Origin: an uncultured Clostridia bacterium
GTDB lineage: Bacteria; Bacillota; DTU014
NCBI GenBank assembly: GCA_900016865.1
Contig: FIZI01000010.1
Coordinates: 1 to 38,804, forward strand
Reading direction: 5' to 3'
DNA: 38,804 nt
Numbering within the stretch: position 1 is the first letter of the stretch; each line of letters begins with the position of its first letter. This document shows, piece after piece, positions 3,449 to 22,025 of the stretch. The notes under the pieces were generated by a model that did not search any database, was not told the origin of the DNA, and was given only the letters and a program-made list of their open reading frames with translations. A program made the position numbers and the translations under genes.

Positions 3449-6100
3449 ATGAAGAAGCCCTACTGCCGTTACAAGGATAGGACCGTACCTATTGAGGACA
3501 GAGTCAGCGACCTCTTGAGCCGCATGACCCTGAGGGAAAAGGTCCGGCAGATGGACATGTATGTAGGTTCGAGTTTTGTCAAGCTGCGCGACGGCACTTC
3601 TGTGGTGACTGATGACGCTGAGATTCTGTGGGACAAGGTAGCTGAGGCGATTGGCTCCGAAGGGATCGGGTGCATTCACGACCTCTACGCCACTGCCAAG
3701 ATCAACAACGAGATCCAGCGATATGCGATCGAGAAGACGCGGCTTGGTATTCCCATATTGTTTAGCGAGGAAGGGCTGCATGGCTTGTGTCGGCCAGGCT
3801 GCACGATCTTTCCTCAGAGTATCGCGTTGGCATCGACATGGCGGCCCGAGATCGTAGAAGAGGTAGGCAGGGCAATTGCGAGGGAGACCCGGAGCTTCAA
3901 TATACACGAGATATTCGGGCCAGTGCTTGACCTTGCAAGGGACCCGCGCTGGGGGCGTATGGAGGAGACCTTCGGAGAAGACACTTACTTGAGCAGCCAG
4001 ATGGCTGTTGCTATGGTGAGAGGGCTTCAGGGCAAGCGGCTTAGTGATCCGGACAGTGTAGTCGCAGAACCAAAGCACTTCGCAGGCTACGGAGTCCCTA
4101 CAGGCGGGCTCAACTGCGCACCCGCTCTCATTGGAAAAAGAGAGTTGTTTATGTACCACCTTCCGATCTTTGAGGCAGCGATAGTAGAGGGTGGAGCTAT
4201 CAATGTCATGTGTTCCTATAACTCTATCGACGGGATACCGTGTTCGTGCGACCACGAGTTGCTTACCACAGTGCTGCGGGATCAGTGGCAGATGCGAGGC
4301 TTCGTTAGAGCGGACCTCGGAGCACTGGGGAATCTCTATCATTGGCACAGAGTAGCCGAGTCTCGAGAAGAGGCGATCAGGCAATCAATAGAAGCAGGCC
4401 TGGACATGCAGTACTATGACTACCCGCATGAGTTCTTCCAAAATGCGTTGATCAAAATGGTAGAAACGGGTAGGATGAAAGAGGAGACCATAGATCGAGC
4501 AGTCGCTCGAATCCTGAGAGTCAAGTTCATGTTAGGGCTCTTTGACAATCCGTGCATTGATCCGAAGTTATCAAGATCAGTAGTGCGCTGCGAACAACAC
4601 AGGCAGGTCGCTCTGCAAGCGGCGCGGGACGCCATTTGTCTCCTGAAGAACGACCACGGACTCTTGCCGCTACCCAAGGATATTGGCTCAGTAGCTGTGA
4701 TCGGGCCAAATGCTGCTGAGGCGAGACTCGGCGACTACACTCCTAGGGTCGAAGGGTTCGAGCCTGTCACTGTCCTTGATGGGATTCGCAGCATAGTCTC
4801 TCCTCAGACGAGGGTTGACTACGTCAAGGGCACGTCGATCGCTCCGGTAGACTTGAGGCCGCTGCCTTCGGCCTGGTTGCAAACTCCGGAGGGCGATAAA
4901 GGCCTGAAGGCAGAGTACTACGACAACCCCAGCGGCAGCGGCGACCCTGTTTTGGTCCGGATTGACCAGGAAATCAACTTCAACTGGATCGTAGCAAAGC
5001 CATGCGCGGAGGTTGGCCCGAGCGACTTCTTCGTCAGGTGGACCGGCACGATGACCCCGCAGTATAGCTTCGATGGGTACTTGGGCATCGGGACGTTTGA
5101 CAGCATGCGGGTATGGGTGGATCAGGCGTTATTGCTTGACAGCCGCAAGCCGGGTGCAGAGGGCAGCCCCGACTCGGGTGTGGAGGGTGTGCGACGGGTC
5201 CCGTTTAGGTTTGAGGCAGGCAGATCGTACGCCATCAAGATAGAGTACTGCAAGGACGCAGGCGGCGCGCGTGTCGTCTTTGGGTGGAGCAGCGAGCAGG
5301 ATCAGATCGATGAGGCGGTGAAGTGTGCCAAAAACGCGGATGTCGCCATCGTAGTCCTGGGCGACTCCAGTGAGACGAGTGGGGAGGGGCTTGACAGGGT
5401 GGACCTCGGCCTGCCTGGAAAGCAACTTGACCTGCTCAAAGCGGTATACGAAACAGGCACTCCGGTTGTGCTGGTGTTGCTCAATGGCAGGGCATTGACG
5501 CTCAACTGGGAGGCAGCTCATATTCCAGCGATCATTGAAGCGTGGTTCTGCGGAGAGCAGGGCGGGACTGCCATTGCAGAGACGCTGTTTGGAGATATAA
5601 ATCCTGCAGGGCGATTGCCAGTCTCCTTCCCCAAGGCTGTAGGCCAGCTCCCGGTCTACTATAATCGTCAACCGGGCGGTAGGCATACCTATGTGGAGAT
5701 GGACTGGGAGCCTTTGTTTCCGTTTGGATATGGCTTGAGCTACACTCGCTTCAGCTACGCCAATCTTAGAGTTGTTCCTCAAAGGATTAGGCTGGGCGAC
5801 TGTGTGGACGTTCATGTAGATATTACGAATACTGGCGACAGAGACGGAGAGGAGGTTGTTCAGCTCTACATAAGGGATCTATGGAGTTCGGTCGTTAGGC
5901 CGCACAAGGAACTCAGAAGGTTCAGGCGAGTGGCCATTTCGGCTGGCCAAACGGTGACTGTTTCATTTACGCTCGATGTGAGAGACTTCAGGCTCATGGA
6001 CAGAGAATACGAATGGGTGGTCGAGCCGGGTACCTTTGAGATAATGGTCGGCCCTCATTCTGGTGCCTTGGACCTCAAGGCCCATCTGGAGATATACTGA
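3449..6100 (+). CDS. GH3 beta-glucosidase/xylosidase-like enzyme with PA14 insert
   Basis: Retaining exo-beta-glycosidase, 883 residues, no signal peptide, so cytoplasmic. The N-terminal (alpha/beta)8 domain carries GPVLDLARDPRWGRMEETFGED and KHFAGYG. The nucleophile is probably Asp289 in GFVRADLGAL, where family members usually have SDW or SDC. The second domain has SETSGEGLDRVDLGLPGKQ (about 641-657), with Glu642 and Glu646 near the acid/base position. A PA14 domain is inserted at about 485-615 (GLKAEYYDN to VVFGWSSEQ). The C-terminus (about 770-875) is the fibronectin-III-like domain with NTGDRDGEEVVQLYI. PA14-bearing GH3 enzymes are mostly beta-glucosidases, but xylosidases share the fold, so specificity is open. 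First of four cytoplasmic glycosidases in a row; the start has only a weak GAGGT site. Confidence 0.92.
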   Translation: MKKPYCRYKDRTVPIEDRVSDLLSRMTLREKVRQMDMYVGSSFVKLRDGTSVVTDDAEILWDKVAEAIGSEGIGCIHDLYATAKINNEIQRYAIEKTRLGIPILFSEEGLHGLCRPGCTIFPQSIALASTWRPEIVEEVGRAIARETRSFNIHEIFGPVLDLARDPRWGRMEETFGEDTYLSSQMAVAMVRGLQGKRLSDPDSVVAEPKHFAGYGVPTGGLNCAPALIGKRELFMYHLPIFEAAIVEGGAINVMCSYNSIDGIPCSCDHELLTTVLRDQWQMRGFVRADLGALGNLYHWHRVAESREEAIRQSIEAGLDMQYYDYPHEFFQNALIKMVETGRMKEETIDRAVARILRVKFMLGLFDNPCIDPKLSRSVVRCEQHRQVALQAARDAICLLKNDHGLLPLPKDIGSVAVIGPNAAEARLGDYTPRVEGFEPVTVLDGIRSIVSPQTRVDYVKGTSIAPVDLRPLPSAWLQTPEGDKGLKAEYYDNPSGSGDPVLVRIDQEINFNWIVAKPCAEVGPSDFFVRWTGTMTPQYSFDGYLGIGTFDSMRVWVDQALLLDSRKPGAEGSPDSGVEGVRRVPFRFEAGRSYAIKIEYCKDAGGARVVFGWSSEQDQIDEAVKCAKNADVAIVVLGDSSETSGEGLDRVDLGLPGKQLDLLKAVYETGTPVVLVLLNGRALTLNWEAAHIPAIIEAWFCGEQGGTAIAETLFGDINPAGRLPVSFPKAVGQLPVYYNRQPGGRHTYVEMDWEPLFPFGYGLSYTRFSYANLRVVPQRIRLGDCVDVHVDITNTGDRDGEEVVQLYIRDLWSSVVRPHKELRRFRRVAISAGQTVTVSFTLDVRDFRLMDREYEWVVEPGTFEIMVGPHSGALDLKAHLEIY

Positions 6101-14264: not shown

Positions 14265-14629
14265 AATACATGAACTTGATAGGTAGTCGACACCTGGATT
14301 CTTGGGCAATCCAATGAAGTCGGACCAAATCTAACCGGTTCGATGCTCACCAAGAGTCTACAATTGCACCGTCCGTATAGAGTCATCCGATGTGAGTCTC
14401 TTCAGAGTTCTCAACCCCAGTGTAACATAGGCAGCCTTTGGGCGGTTAGGTCGTCTGCGGCATGCTTGTTTTTAGCTTGCCATTAGGCAGATTTCAACAA
14501 CCCCGCGAATACAATTTAGAGAGGAAGGATACAGCCTTAGCTTAGGTTGGACGATTTCGATTGGAGTTGGATGATGGCGTCCCGAGTATGCTAATAGCTC
14601 AAGCTAAACGCATTATGGAGGTCAGAGCC
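14265..14629 (+). other. Intergenic regulatory region ahead of the second transporter operon
   Basis: About 365 bases without a supported gene. It contains an operator-like palindrome (14330-14343), a TACAAT -10-like hexamer at 14359-14364 whose -35 region the palindrome would cover, a half-site-like CGGTTAG at 14443-14449, and a second TACAAT at 14510-14515. No good -35 partner is visible for either -10, so promoter assignment is tentative. GGAGG at 14617-14621 is the ribosome binding site of the mini-SBP. I see no terminator for the kinase gene. Confidence 0.4.
14330..14343 (+). promoter_or_regulatory. Candidate LacI-family operator O1
   Basis: TCTAACCGGTTCGA contains the perfect palindrome AACCGGTT with a central CG, the usual form of LacI-family operators. 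It matches 12 of 14 positions of the motif at 19591 and 10 of 14 at 35345, both also in front of sugar genes. A LacI-type regulator is encoded at 18531 in the same gene cluster. The site lies just upstream of a TACAAT hexamer, so a bound repressor would block the polymerase. Confidence 0.5.
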
Positions 14630-15055
14630 ATGAAATCAAAGAGTATCATCACCTTGACTCTTGTGGTACTCTTGGCGCTTCTCCTGAGTTTCAGCACGTT
14701 GGCAGCGGACGCATATCCAAAGTACACTAGGAAGCCCACCACGATAACTATGTGGGTGTGGACGAGCAACGAGAACTACTCGATCAATGAGTGGCTCGAT
14801 GAGGAGACGTTTGTTGAGCTCCCTGGCGGACAGAATCCAGGTAAGCTCCTGCTAGAGGCTCATGAAATGGTTGACACTGCCTTTCACTTGCCGATCATGT
14901 CTAACGTTGCGAGCAGCATCAGTCAGCGAATGCAGGACTACCTGAATGGCAAGATAGACAGATTTGTAGACATCCTCGCACTTTGGGACAAGGATACCAT
15001 CGAGTACATAAGAGAGTTTGAGTATGACAACGTAGTCTATGGGCGACTGCCGTAA
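14630..15055 (+). CDS. Internally deleted SBP paralogue (mini-SBP)
   Basis: An intact 141-residue frame with GGAGG eight bases before ATG 14630, a Sec signal peptide (cleavage near STLAA) and a terminator. It is a paralogue of the 435-residue SBP at 15235 with two in-frame gaps. Residues 1-52 match the start of the paralogue (TITMWVWTSNENYSI versus TLTMWAWTSNENYSI). Then 57 residues are missing and NEWLDEETFVEL aligns with NKWLDEETFVKL. Then about 241 residues are missing and GGQN to the C-terminus (YLNGKIDRFVDIL versus YVDGKIQRFADIL) aligns to the end. Both junctions fall where the paralogue carries short matching sequence (CGAT; GGCG). Most of both lobes is gone, so sugar binding is unlikely. 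It is either a decaying tandem copy that kept its frame or a small secreted protein with a new role. Confidence 0.85.
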   Translation: MKSKSIITLTLVVLLALLLSFSTLAADAYPKYTRKPTTITMWVWTSNENYSINEWLDEETFVELPGGQNPGKLLLEAHEMVDTAFHLPIMSNVASSISQRMQDYLNGKIDRFVDILALWDKDTIEYIREFEYDNVVYGRLP

Positions 15056-15064
15056 CTATATATG

Positions 15065-15086
15065 AAAGGGGCTGTGTTGGCCCCTT
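15065..15086 (+). terminator. Intrinsic terminator-like hairpin after mini-SBP
   Basis: AAGGGGC (15066-15072) pairs with GCCCCTT (15080-15086) around a 7-base loop, ten bases after the stop codon, followed by CCTGTTTAC. The T-tract is short, so termination may be partial. This would separate the mini-SBP from the full-length SBP at 15235. Confidence 0.6.
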
Positions 15087-15234: not shown

Positions 15235-16542
15235 ATGAAGAGGATTCTAGTGGGGATTCTTATACTCCTATTGCTCAGCTCCTGTGCATCGGCTACAGAC
15301 TACTATCCTGAGTACACCGGTGAGCCGGTCACGTTGACAATGTGGGCTTGGACCAGCAATGAGAACTACTCGATTGAGGAGTTCGAGAAGGTGTACCCAA
15401 ATATCAAAGTCATATGGGAAGACTTCGGAGTCCACTACGACAAGGCTCAGACTGCTCTGGCAGCAGGTTCAGGGCTGCCAGACGTATTGATGATCGAGTA
15501 CTCCTTTGCGCCTCAGTTTATGGACCTTGGTGCATTTCAGCCGATCAACAAGTGGCTCGACGAAGAGACGTTTGTCAAACTCTACGGCGAGGCCTCTCTT
15601 GGTCTCTGCTCTATGGATGGCGAGATATACGGAACCCCTCAGGATAGCGGTGCCAACGCTCTCTTCTATAGAAAGGATATCTTTGACAAGTACGGTTTGA
15701 AGGTCCCTACCACCTGGGACGAATATGCAGAACAGGCTAGAAAACTAAAGGCGGCTGCTCCCGACCTCGAGTTTGCAGCACCCCCGATCGGTTATGCATT
15801 GGTGTGGGTAGGCATGATCTGGGGAGCAGGCGGGAAGCTGTTTGACTATCACGACGGCAATTGGTACATAGACTTCACCAACCCTATTGCAGAGGAGTTC
15901 TTTGAGTTCTGGGGTGAGTTGTTCGACGAGGGAATTCTCGACCTTCAGATGTGGTGGAATCCTGACTGGTATTCTTCACTCAACGAAGGCAAGACTGCAA
16001 CAGTTATCGTGGGCTCATGGTTCGGCGAATGGCTCAGGTACAATGCCCCAGAGTCTGCAGGACAGTGGAGAGTCGCTGTGCCTCCGTTCATCAGGAAGGG
16101 TGAGGAGCACAACGGCATGATAGGCGGCTCCGGCTTCTACGTCACTTCCCATTGCAAGAACCCTGAGGCTGCTGCCATATTCGTCAACTGGCTCAACTCG
16201 CATCCTGACTCGCTCAGGTGTCTGCACAGGTACAGCAATCTGCCGATTATGGTCTCCACAAGGTATGAAGAGATTCTCGACGAGATAGCCGGGCCGGACG
16301 AGTTTTTTGGCGGCCAGAATATAGTTGAAGAGCTCTGGCATGCTCATGAGCTCGTAAACACGACCTTTGTTGCTCTACCGATTTGGTCCAATATGGACAG
16401 CGCTCTGAGCCTGCTTCTGCAGGATTATGTCGACGGCAAGATCCAGAGATTTGCAGATATCCTCCCGGTGTGGGAAAAGCAGGTTATTGAGACCATGGAG
16501 GAGTTTGGCTACACCAACCTCATAGTTGGAGAGCTTCCATAA
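15235..16542 (+). CDS. Sugar-binding lipoprotein (SBP family 1)
   Basis: 435 residues. ATG 15235 with AAGGAG upstream is chosen over the in-frame GTG 15214, which lies before that site. The N-terminus MKRILVGILILLLLSSC is a lipoprotein signal with lipobox LSSC and Cys17 as the lipid anchor. The mature protein has TLTMWAWTSNENYSIEEFEKVYPNIKV, LAAGSGLPDVLMIEY, and NALFYRKDIFDKYGLKVPTTWDEY, which are family-1 solute-binding signatures. It is the parent-type paralogue of the mini-SBP immediately upstream. A 40-base hairpin follows, then its two permeases. The substrate is unknown; binding-site aromatics (WWNPDWY) fit an oligosaccharide. Confidence 0.92.
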   Translation: MKRILVGILILLLLSSCASATDYYPEYTGEPVTLTMWAWTSNENYSIEEFEKVYPNIKVIWEDFGVHYDKAQTALAAGSGLPDVLMIEYSFAPQFMDLGAFQPINKWLDEETFVKLYGEASLGLCSMDGEIYGTPQDSGANALFYRKDIFDKYGLKVPTTWDEYAEQARKLKAAAPDLEFAAPPIGYALVWVGMIWGAGGKLFDYHDGNWYIDFTNPIAEEFFEFWGELFDEGILDLQMWWNPDWYSSLNEGKTATVIVGSWFGEWLRYNAPESAGQWRVAVPPFIRKGEEHNGMIGGSGFYVTSHCKNPEAAAIFVNWLNSHPDSLRCLHRYSNLPIMVSTRYEEILDEIAGPDEFFGGQNIVEELWHAHELVNTTFVALPIWSNMDSALSLLLQDYVDGKIQRFADILPVWEKQVIETMEEFGYTNLIVGELP

Positions 16543-16610: not shown

Positions 16611-16667
16611 TGGATACAGCCTGACCACATGGAGCGACGACAAATCCAGTTTAGAGGTGCTGACGCT

Positions 16668-17555
16668 ATGACCTCAGTGACAAAAAAGAAGCTAATGACG
16701 ACGTTAAAGGCTTATCTCTTTTTGGCACCCTTTCTCGCTCTGTTTATCCTCATGGTCATATACCCGATAGGGTTGGGTGCGAAGCTCTCTTTGTATGGAC
16801 AGAGAGGCGCAAGAATGTGGTATGTCGGCTTTGACAACTACTTTCGCATATTTCAGGACAAGAAGTTCTGGGAAGCGTTCAAGATCCCCGCATTCCTCTT
16901 GTTTGTTCAAGTGCCACTGATGCTGCTCCTTGCGACTATTGTGTCACTCATGTTTGAGACCCGTAAGCGAAGCGGGTCTGTTTTCCGCTTTATCTACTAC
17001 TTGCCTTACTGTATTCCGGGGATCGTGGCCGGCATCGTATGGTCCTACATCTTTTCCGACTCGATGTCGCCTCTAAAGCCGCTGCTTCAGTTTTTTGGCT
17101 ATCAGGGTGAAAAACTGCTGACGCGGCCCAACGTCCCGCTGATACTTCTGATCATCATCTTGTGGGAGTTCACCGGTTACACAGCATTTGTCATCTATTC
17201 CTCTCTGATCTCCATCCCAAGGGAGTATTCGGAGGCTGCTCAGTTGGATGGCGCCGGGTTTTGGCAGATCGCGTTTAAGATCAAGATCCCCCTGTTGAAG
17301 GACGTGCTAATCACCCTGTTTATTTTCAACGCAATAGGAGCAATCCAGGTGTTCAACGAGCCATGGATGCTTGGAGGCCTAGTAGTGCTGCCCAACAACT
17401 ACACGCCTGCCATGTACATCTATTCTTCGGCTTTTTCACAAGGCCGGTTTACATATGCGGCAGCCATGGGAATGATCTTAGCGTGTGTGACCTTTGTGTT
17501 TTCTCTGTGGGTACTCAGAACTGCGGCTAAACAGCTCCTAGGGAGCAAGTCCTAG
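16668..17555 (+). CDS. ABC sugar permease, MalF/UgpA type
   Basis: Membrane subunit of the second CUT1 importer, about 295 residues. ATG 16668 has AGAGGTG about eight bases upstream; an in-frame ATG at 16629 is possible but has no ribosome binding site. The first helix AYLFLAPFLALFILMVIYPI is typical. WYVGFDNYFRIFQDKKFWEAF is the conserved post-helix-1 segment. The EAA loop is REYSEAAQLDGAGFWQIAFKIKIPLL, leading into a C-terminal helix. The partner permease starts 32 bases downstream. The SBP upstream is the lipoprotein at 15235. Confidence 0.93.
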   Translation: MTSVTKKKLMTTLKAYLFLAPFLALFILMVIYPIGLGAKLSLYGQRGARMWYVGFDNYFRIFQDKKFWEAFKIPAFLLFVQVPLMLLLATIVSLMFETRKRSGSVFRFIYYLPYCIPGIVAGIVWSYIFSDSMSPLKPLLQFFGYQGEKLLTRPNVPLILLIIILWEFTGYTAFVIYSSLISIPREYSEAAQLDGAGFWQIAFKIKIPLLKDVLITLFIFNAIGAIQVFNEPWMLGGLVVLPNNYTPAMYIYSSAFSQGRFTYAAAMGMILACVTFVFSLWVLRTAAKQLLGSKS

Positions 17556-17587
17556 GCCGGGGGTGTGAGCCTAGAGGAGGGGTTGGA

Positions 17588-18409
17588 GTGAGCAAGCGAG
17601 TCATGGTCGGAATAGGTGTAACTGCTATCTTGGTTGCTCTGGCTGTGTATTTCATATTCCCGTTCTACTGGCTCGTAATTGGAATAACTAAGGACGTCGG
17701 ACAGCTATTCCAGAAGTCTCTGCTTCCTGGAGTTCCAAGCCACCTGCGCGAGAACATCCAGAGAGTCTTTGCATACGAGAACGGTGTGTTCTTCAAGTGG
17801 CTAGGAAACTCGTTTCTGTACGCCACAGTGGGATCTGTAACAGGTGTGACAGTCGCGGCTTTGGCCGGGTTTGCCTTCCGCAGATACGACTTTTTCTTGA
17901 AAAAGCCGCTGTTCATATTGATCTTGGGTTTCTCAATGGTTCCGGGATATGCCACCACATTGCCGCTGTTCATGATGTTTAGGGATCTACGTCTCATCGA
18001 TACGCGCTGGGCTGTGCTTTTGCCGGCCTTTGTCAACGTGTTTGGTGTGTATATGATGGTAGCCTATTTCAACCAAATAACCGACGACATGTTCGACGCT
18101 GCTGAAATCGATGGGGCCAACGACTTCGCTATCTTCCTCCGAATAGCTTTTCCGAACATAGTGCCCGGGTTCATTACCTTGGTGCTGTTGTCCTTTGTAG
18201 GTTCTTGGAACAACTTCTTCTTGCCGCTAGTCGTGTTGAACAGCAGAGCAAAGATGCCTCTTATCTTGGGAATTACCACTATTACAGACCCGCAGGGATT
18301 CCCGGTGTACAACTTGACTCTGACTGCAAGCTTTTTCACCATATTGCCGCTGCTCATCATGTTTACCGCTCTCCAGAGATATTTTAGGCCGCAGCTGTAT
18401 GTGCGGTAG
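17588..18409 (+). CDS. ABC sugar permease, MalG/UgpE type
   Basis: Second permease of the importer, 273 residues. It starts at GTG 17588 behind AGAGGAGGGG. Helix 1 is AILVALAVYFIFPFYWLVIGI. The EAA loop DMFDAAEIDGANDFAIFLRIAFPNIVPG is clear. WNNFFLPLVVLNS and the ending LQRYFRPQLYV are typical of MalG-type proteins. The gene is followed by the LacI-family regulator 121 bases later. No ATPase gene accompanies this importer. Confidence 0.93.
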   Translation: MSKRVMVGIGVTAILVALAVYFIFPFYWLVIGITKDVGQLFQKSLLPGVPSHLRENIQRVFAYENGVFFKWLGNSFLYATVGSVTGVTVAALAGFAFRRYDFFLKKPLFILILGFSMVPGYATTLPLFMMFRDLRLIDTRWAVLLPAFVNVFGVYMMVAYFNQITDDMFDAAEIDGANDFAIFLRIAFPNIVPGFITLVLLSFVGSWNNFFLPLVVLNSRAKMPLILGITTITDPQGFPVYNLTLTASFFTILPLLIMFTALQRYFRPQLYVR

Positions 18410-18530
18410 TGCAGTCGCAGCAGCAGGAGTGTTCCTTGGCAGCAGGAAATCTGGCCATTGATGTAAAATCAGGTTATCTATACGCTTAGGTGTGTACTGA
18501 TGGGAGGATTTGTACCACAGGAGGGCACCG

Positions 18531-19529
18531 ATGCCAACCATAAGAGATGTAGCAAAAAGAGCAGGAGTCTCGGTAGCAACAGTCTCAGCAGTGATCAATG
18601 CCGATTCGGGTGTTAATGTCAGCGAAGAGAAGAGGCGGAGCGTTGAGAAAGCTATCGAGGAGCTGAACTACAGACCCAACAGGATCGCTCAGGCACTGTC
18701 CAAGAGGCAAACCAAGACCATAGCGTATGTGGTGCCTACGATCAGCAACGAGTTTTTCTCTCAGATGGCTCACTTTATCGAGGACAGGGCGTTTGAGCGT
18801 GAGTACGGCGTATATCTATGCAATACGCACAGCAATCTCGAACGCGTCGATCTGTATATGGACATATTGATCGAGAACCAAGTGGCCGGTGTAGTGACGA
18901 CGCTGACCTGGGATATCATCGAACAAGGTTTCATCGACGGTATTAGAGCAGAGGGAATTCCCATCGTAGGCCTTGCAGGGGCGAGAGTAGTAGACGGTTT
19001 GGATACAGTTACAATAGACGACGTGATGGTTGGCAGAGTTGCTGTCACGCACCTAATAGACCGCGGCCATCGAAAGATCGGCTTTATCGGTATCAAGGAT
19101 AGCCGGACTACGGGCGAGCGGCTTGCAGGCTATTTGGAGGCATTGCGCGAATCTGGGATAGAGGTCAGTGATGACTACATAGGGCTTGGGACCGGCTTCT
19201 CTCGTGAGGACGGCTATCAGCTGGCTGGCGCTCTATACAGTAGGTGCCCTGAAATGACCGCGGTATTTGTCTACAACGACGTTATGGCTGCAGGGGCGAT
19301 CGACAGATTTCGCGATATGGGAGTGAGGATACCCGACGAGATGGCTGTAGTCGGCTGTGACAACAGTATCTCGGATTACACAAGGCCCAAGCTTACCACC
19401 CTCGACTTCTCAAAAGAAAAAATGGTCGAGGACGCGATGGACTTGCTGTTTAGACGGATTGCCAAGGAGAAGTCCCCCTACAACCAGATCAAGGTTGTGC
19501 CTCAGTTGATAGTCAAGGAGTCTTCGTGA
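18531..19529 (+). CDS. LacI-family transcriptional regulator
   Basis: 332 residues; ATG 18531 is preceded by AGGAGGG at good spacing, so the in-frame TTG at 18510 is not used. The DNA-binding head is at residues 1-57: helix-turn-helix IRDVAKRAGVSVATVSAVIN and hinge helix PNRIAQALS. The rest is a periplasmic-binding-protein-like effector domain (TIAYVVPTISNEFFSQM, VTHLIDRGHRKIGFIG, VFVYNDVMAAGAIDRFRDMGVRIPDEMAVVGCDN). Regulators of this class repress sugar genes until a sugar binds. It sits between a transporter operon and an arabinofuranosidase operon. LacI-type palindromes occur before both (14330, 19591) and at the alpha-xylosidase promoter (35345), making these its likely targets. The effector is unknown; arabinose- or xylose-derived sugars are a guess. 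Confidence 0.95.
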   Translation: MPTIRDVAKRAGVSVATVSAVINADSGVNVSEEKRRSVEKAIEELNYRPNRIAQALSKRQTKTIAYVVPTISNEFFSQMAHFIEDRAFEREYGVYLCNTHSNLERVDLYMDILIENQVAGVVTTLTWDIIEQGFIDGIRAEGIPIVGLAGARVVDGLDTVTIDDVMVGRVAVTHLIDRGHRKIGFIGIKDSRTTGERLAGYLEALRESGIEVSDDYIGLGTGFSREDGYQLAGALYSRCPEMTAVFVYNDVMAAGAIDRFRDMGVRIPDEMAVVGCDNSISDYTRPKLTTLDFSKEKMVEDAMDLLFRRIAKEKSPYNQIKVVPQLIVKESS

Positions 19530-19570: not shown

Positions 19571-19604
19571 CCGTTGCGTAACAACGGCGGTCTAATCGGT
19601 TAGA
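19571..19604 (+). promoter_or_regulatory. Candidate LacI-family operator O2 and adjacent hairpin
   Basis: TCTAATCGGTTAGA (19591-19604) is an interrupted palindrome, CTAA-N-CG-N-TTAG, matching O1 at 12 of 14 positions. Its left half also reads as a -10-like TCTAAT, but no -35 stands at the right distance. Four bases before it, CCGTTG (19571-19576) pairs with CAACGG (19582-19587) around a 5-base loop; this may be a weak terminator of the lacI-type gene or a second protein site. The arabinofuranosidase starts at 19726. Confidence 0.5.

Positions 19605-19692: not shown

Positions 19693-22025
<2,333 letters not shown>

Follow-up and report, generated by a model that had tools for sequence, protein, structure and literature searches.

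In the window (the whole 38,804-nt stretch of DNA analysed here), a 141-codon gene with a start codon, a ribosome binding site and a signal peptide stands immediately before a solute-binding protein (SBP) gene that it resembles in part, raising the question of whether it encodes a small secreted protein maintained by selection or is what is left of a second binding protein. Our analysis points to the latter: this mini gene is probably the remnant of an old tandem SBP copy caught half-way through gene decay and not a new small secreted protein. An earlier note on this DNA had offered selection or recent decay as the two readings; recent decay now looks the likelier, while a selected small protein has gained no positive support.

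Structure and operon setting of the mini gene

The gene and its surroundings comprise the following features:

14330–14343, + strand: LacI-type operator TCTAACCGGTTCGA, one mismatch to TCTAANCGNTTAGA, 5′ of the mini gene (motif search)
14617–14621, + strand: ribosome binding site GGAGG, good, 8 nt 5′ of the ATG (sequence)
14630–15055, + strand: mini gene, a doubly deleted in-frame SBP paralogue, 141 aa (ORF translation, alignment)
15066–15086, + strand: hairpin GGGGCUGUGUUGGCCCC 3′ of the mini gene, lacking a canonical U-tract and weak as a terminator (terminator scan, fold)
15235–16542, + strand: intact tandem paralogue, a carbohydrate ABC transporter solute-binding protein (SBP_bac_1, PF01547, E = 1e-34; Pfam)
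16629–18409, + strand: two ABC permease genes of the same operon (16629–17555 and 17588–18409)
18510–19529, + strand: LacI-family repressor, the probable owner of the operator
19591–19604, + strand: second operator, perfect, TCTAATCGGTTAGA, before the ArfA gene (motif search)
19717–21231, + strand: arabinosylfuranosidase ArfA, the operon's cargo enzyme (NF051901, 776 bits, curated cut-off 625)

Alignment with the tandem SBP, which the earlier note had called for, resolves the mini gene into three collinear blocks: the signal peptide and first strand (to YSI), the 12-residue segment NEWLDEETFVEL and the C-terminal ~78 residues. Identity to the neighbour is 70 % in the N-terminal and 51 % in the C-terminal of the two longer blocks. 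The note had also described the expression signals as intact, and here the ribosome binding site stands but the terminator does not, as the scan detected no intrinsic terminator after the mini gene and the hairpin has a folding z of only −1.6. Nor is the paralogue's signal peptide retained as such; that of the mini gene is type-I-like and without a lipobox, carries five extra residues and has no counterpart of the cysteine in the borderline lipobox of the paralogue. In the intact SBP of the window (15235–15300), this lipobox reads LSSC and matches PF08139 exactly at the cut-off, and most of the aligned SBP orthologues have ordinary signal peptides in place of a lipobox. No Rfam match to an RNA-family element was found in the leader of the mini gene.

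The two operators listed above are the only sites in the whole genome, and the genome-wide motif search placed none between the mini gene and the SBP gene. In four related loci (L020, L023, L024 and L032), TCTAANCGNTTAGA occurs as a pair less than 300 bp directly 5′ of the SBP gene; as the operator precedes the SBP in these relatives and the mini gene here, the mini gene is in the position of first gene in the operon for arabinoside uptake. The order SBP, permease, permease, LacI and arabinofuranosidase recurs in L015, L020, L023 and L024, each of which is led by a single intact SBP. A promoter scan returned no sigma-70-like promoter near the upstream operator, and we therefore only infer that the mini and SBP genes are co-transcribed; on the + strand between the two genes, it likewise returned no promoter-like site.

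Deletions, junctions and predicted product

Recomputed at the DNA level, the absences proposed in the earlier note were confirmed: the mini gene lacks paralogue residues 48–104 (exactly 57 codons) and 119–359 (exactly 241 codons), 298 codons relative to the intact paralogue, both in frame. A third in-frame deletion removed a single residue (TFVALP to AF-HLP). Each of the two large deletions has its junction at a short repeat, as follows:

14781–14784, + strand: junction 1, 4-bp microhomology CGAT, with paralogue copies at 15371–15374 and 15542–15545 (DNA comparison)
14825–14828, + strand: junction 2, 4-bp microhomology GGCG, with paralogue copies at 15586–15589 and 16309–16312 (DNA comparison)

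With the paralogue taken as an approximation of the ancestral mini sequence, microhomology of this length is expected by chance at ~2.6 % of in-frame joins in the SBP gene, and its presence at both junctions fits a repeat-mediated deletion mechanism. Loss of DNA between short repeats has been described as a path of bacterial gene decay (PMC3637634). The preserved frame itself says little. The note had reasoned that random decay rarely leaves two large in-frame deletions, but the chance that both keep frame is 1 in 9, and out-of-frame cases would have escaped notice as an ORF, making this a weak argument.

The junctions also bear on whether an assembly error has joined pieces of a full-length second copy, since the assembly comprises 59 contigs and tandem paralogues are hard to assemble. 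We regard such an error as barely credible: assemblers make no joins at overlaps as short as 4 bp, let alone two of them in frame, and the mini gene differs from its neighbour throughout, at the identities given above.

For the mini protein, AlphaFold returned a pLDDT of 60 (below 50 at residues 36–87) and a pTM of 0.37; the full SBP scored 86 and 0.85. No compact fold was seen in the predicted model, and the two-lobe fold that closes on a sugar is absent from it, both lobes being mostly deleted. Searches with the mini protein gave 0 matches to Pfam models and 0 to NCBIfam models, and thus no PF01547 or PF13416 match across both lobes. With most of both lobes gone, sugar binding in the manner of an SBP is very unlikely. 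What the mini gene does display is collinear common descent with an SBP_bac_1 member and, relative to intact relatives, a pseudogene-type loss of essential parts.

Counterparts in related genomes

The search for the same short form in relatives, suggested by the earlier note, covered about 570 genomes in all, including the gene's own genus (one genome), 398 genomes of the phylum, 17 of the order of G064 and two of the class, together with 21 fetched loci. No counterpart of the mini gene, and hence no small secreted protein conserved in several genomes, was found in this set. In G001, the only genome of the same family that was compared, the DNA upstream of the SBP bears no trace of a mini gene. 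Viral contigs contained no match that would indicate a viral origin, and a literature search on truncated SBP relics yielded nothing useful.

When up to 3 kb of sequence before the SBP of each fetched locus was searched with a profile, the only positive besides the window was L015, setting aside L022, where the match is probably a separate SBP operon, and L055, where it is a contig-edge copy. In L015, positions 3734–3781 encode FEDFGYDNVIVGELP followed by a stop, which corresponds to the last ~16 codons of the SBP C-terminus. This fragment lies 219 bp before the intact SBP (start 4001), behind operator sites at 3542 and 3654, and so sits where the mini gene does in the window and ends in the expected stop; however, the hmm match is weak (E = 0.006), and nucleotide identity is 26/48 to the mini gene compared with 36/48 to the SBP of L015 itself. 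Either an upstream copy that has eroded further or a partly duplicated end of the neighbouring gene could account for it.

Several irregular SBP copies were also encountered. The SBP frame of L021 (4001–5305) carries one internal TAG where ADILPMWE has its conserved W, and that of L025 (19–1326) carries one internal TAA after VHYE; these stops are either assembly errors or decay. In L033 (4001–5561), the SBP match is split between two frames (residues 4–284 and 330–435, with ~400 bp between them), suggesting a disrupted or inserted copy. The contig-edge copy of L055 (genome G166, left edge of contig C72) is an SBP N-terminus that runs off the contig end, and a second SBP copy of G166 begins close to the edge of contig C92; the two may be a tandem pair that the assembly has split.

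Age, constraint and the open frame

In a tree built on the shared columns, the mini gene forms a long branch outside the group of its genomic neighbour, although its exact position is poorly supported. Forcing the two to be sisters costs ~14 lnL units under a codon model, so that the duplication or acquisition is old. Third positions differ between them at 43–58 %. A recent tandem duplication of the neighbour is ruled out by these two observations.

Constraint along this branch is harder to read. Depending on topology, omega for the whole mini branch is about 0.03–0.15 and fixing it at 1 costs ~11–18 lnL units, so that neutrality is rejected for the branch taken in its entirety. Because synonymous sites on the mini branch are saturated, this low omega chiefly reflects the period that preceded the deletions; it can be explained by pre-deletion constraint, the two periods being inseparable under saturation. 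Branch dN/dS is accordingly uninformative as proof of either selection or decay. At the level of residues, the mini gene breaks 10 of 51 family-invariant positions (W to L, G to E, P to A and L to R among them), compared with none in the intact copy of the window and at most five in any core member. These changes are concentrated in the C-terminal block (8/31, compared with 2/21 in the N-terminal block), where mini-branch dN is 0.24 compared with 0.03; the N-terminal block shows little acceleration. Since the distant full-length relatives L029 and L030 break even more invariants in their C-terminal block, the count favours relaxed constraint without proving it.

The disparity between blocks would also be expected of a mosaic gene, in which the N-terminal blocks derive from one SBP copy, the C-terminal block derives from a more diverged one and junction 2 is the fusion point. 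Treating the blocks separately gains 5.5 lnL under one topology, and the C-terminal block is, as described above, far more diverged from the neighbour. The gain falls to 0.7 lnL, however, when the mini gene is placed beside L015, the blocks are short and the C-terminal block is more variable family-wide, leaving a mosaic origin highly improbable.

How long a frame of this length would stay open was estimated by neutral simulations assuming indel rates of 5–10 % of substitutions: it survived in 31–47 % of runs at 2 % divergence, in 6–17 % at 5 % and in 0.4–2.6 % at 10 %. It follows that the deletions are recent (less than ~5–8 % neutral divergence) or that the open frame has been selected. Selection could have kept a small secreted protein, composed of the first strand and C-terminal helices of the SBP and acting, as the earlier note envisaged, as a decoy, a permease-contacting fragment or a signal. 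The intact start, signal peptide and ribosome binding site, the 141 open codons, the survival odds at 5 % divergence and the low whole-branch omega all speak for such a protein. We nonetheless consider it quite unlikely, given that it is known from one genome only, has no confident fold, has lost the sugar-binding core with most of both lobes and has broken invariant residues in what it retains.

Selection might otherwise act on translation of the mini gene and not on its product, as untranslated RNA at this point would lower expression of the transporter. This possibility, which we hold only tentatively, is compatible with decay and would refine it. The operator upstream of the mini gene, the empty scan between the mini gene and the SBP and the fact that every size change in the mini gene is in frame are consistent with it; on the other hand, the promoter scan is empty upstream of the mini gene too, the effect would presuppose Rho dependence in this lineage and the corresponding slot of L015 is untranslated, though only ~330 nt long. 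That a shrunken SBP is kept in frame by selection, whether it works on the arabinoside transporter as an exported small protein or is a spacer whose translation shields the operon behind it from polarity, appears unlikely.

Under the preferred reading of gene decay, an old tandem SBP copy would once have stood first in the LacI-controlled arabinoside-uptake operon, until its role passed to the downstream copy that adjoins the permeases. From the upstream copy, 57 and 241 codons would have been lost through two microhomology-mediated deletions, such that it no longer makes a binding protein; that the frame of this copy has stayed open would be due to the recency of the deletions or to chance, perhaps aided by selection against stops and frameshifts, which would be polar on the SBP and permease genes downstream. 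This account builds on the observed deletions, microhomologies, old divergence and operator position and on the C-terminal fragment of L015; the lack of function, the timing of the decay and the polarity effect are its presumptive parts. Against it stand the intact start, signal peptide, ribosome binding site and frame, the non-neutral branch, the slight acceleration of the N-terminal block, the possibility that the L015 fragment is a duplicated neighbour end and the lack of any upstream trace in G001.

Comparison with known systems

The locus offers a worked example of how an apparent small secreted protein, complete with ribosome binding site and signal peptide, can prove to be a half-deleted paralogue. 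The position of the operator and the L015 fragment suggest that an upstream tandem SBP may erode in more than one lineage, and, if translation of such relics is indeed selected against polarity, this would help to explain in-frame remnants at the heads of operons.

Among family 1 carbohydrate ABC SBPs (PF01547, SBP_bac_1), the neighbour is a clear member, with which the mini gene is collinear in three blocks; compared with these proteins, 298 residues are missing from the mini gene, and almost nothing of the Pfam domain is left. The mini gene is reminiscent of bacterial gene remnants left by RecA-independent short-repeat deletion, for example during the reductive evolution of Streptococcus agalactiae (PMC3637634), in that large deletions bounded by short repeats have struck a redundant gene; unlike those remnants, both of its deletions are in frame and leave an ORF with a ribosome binding site and a signal peptide. 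The related Bacillota operons L020, L023 and L024 share the gene order and operator motif of the window but have one SBP directly behind the operator, whereas in the window the mini gene stands between the two.
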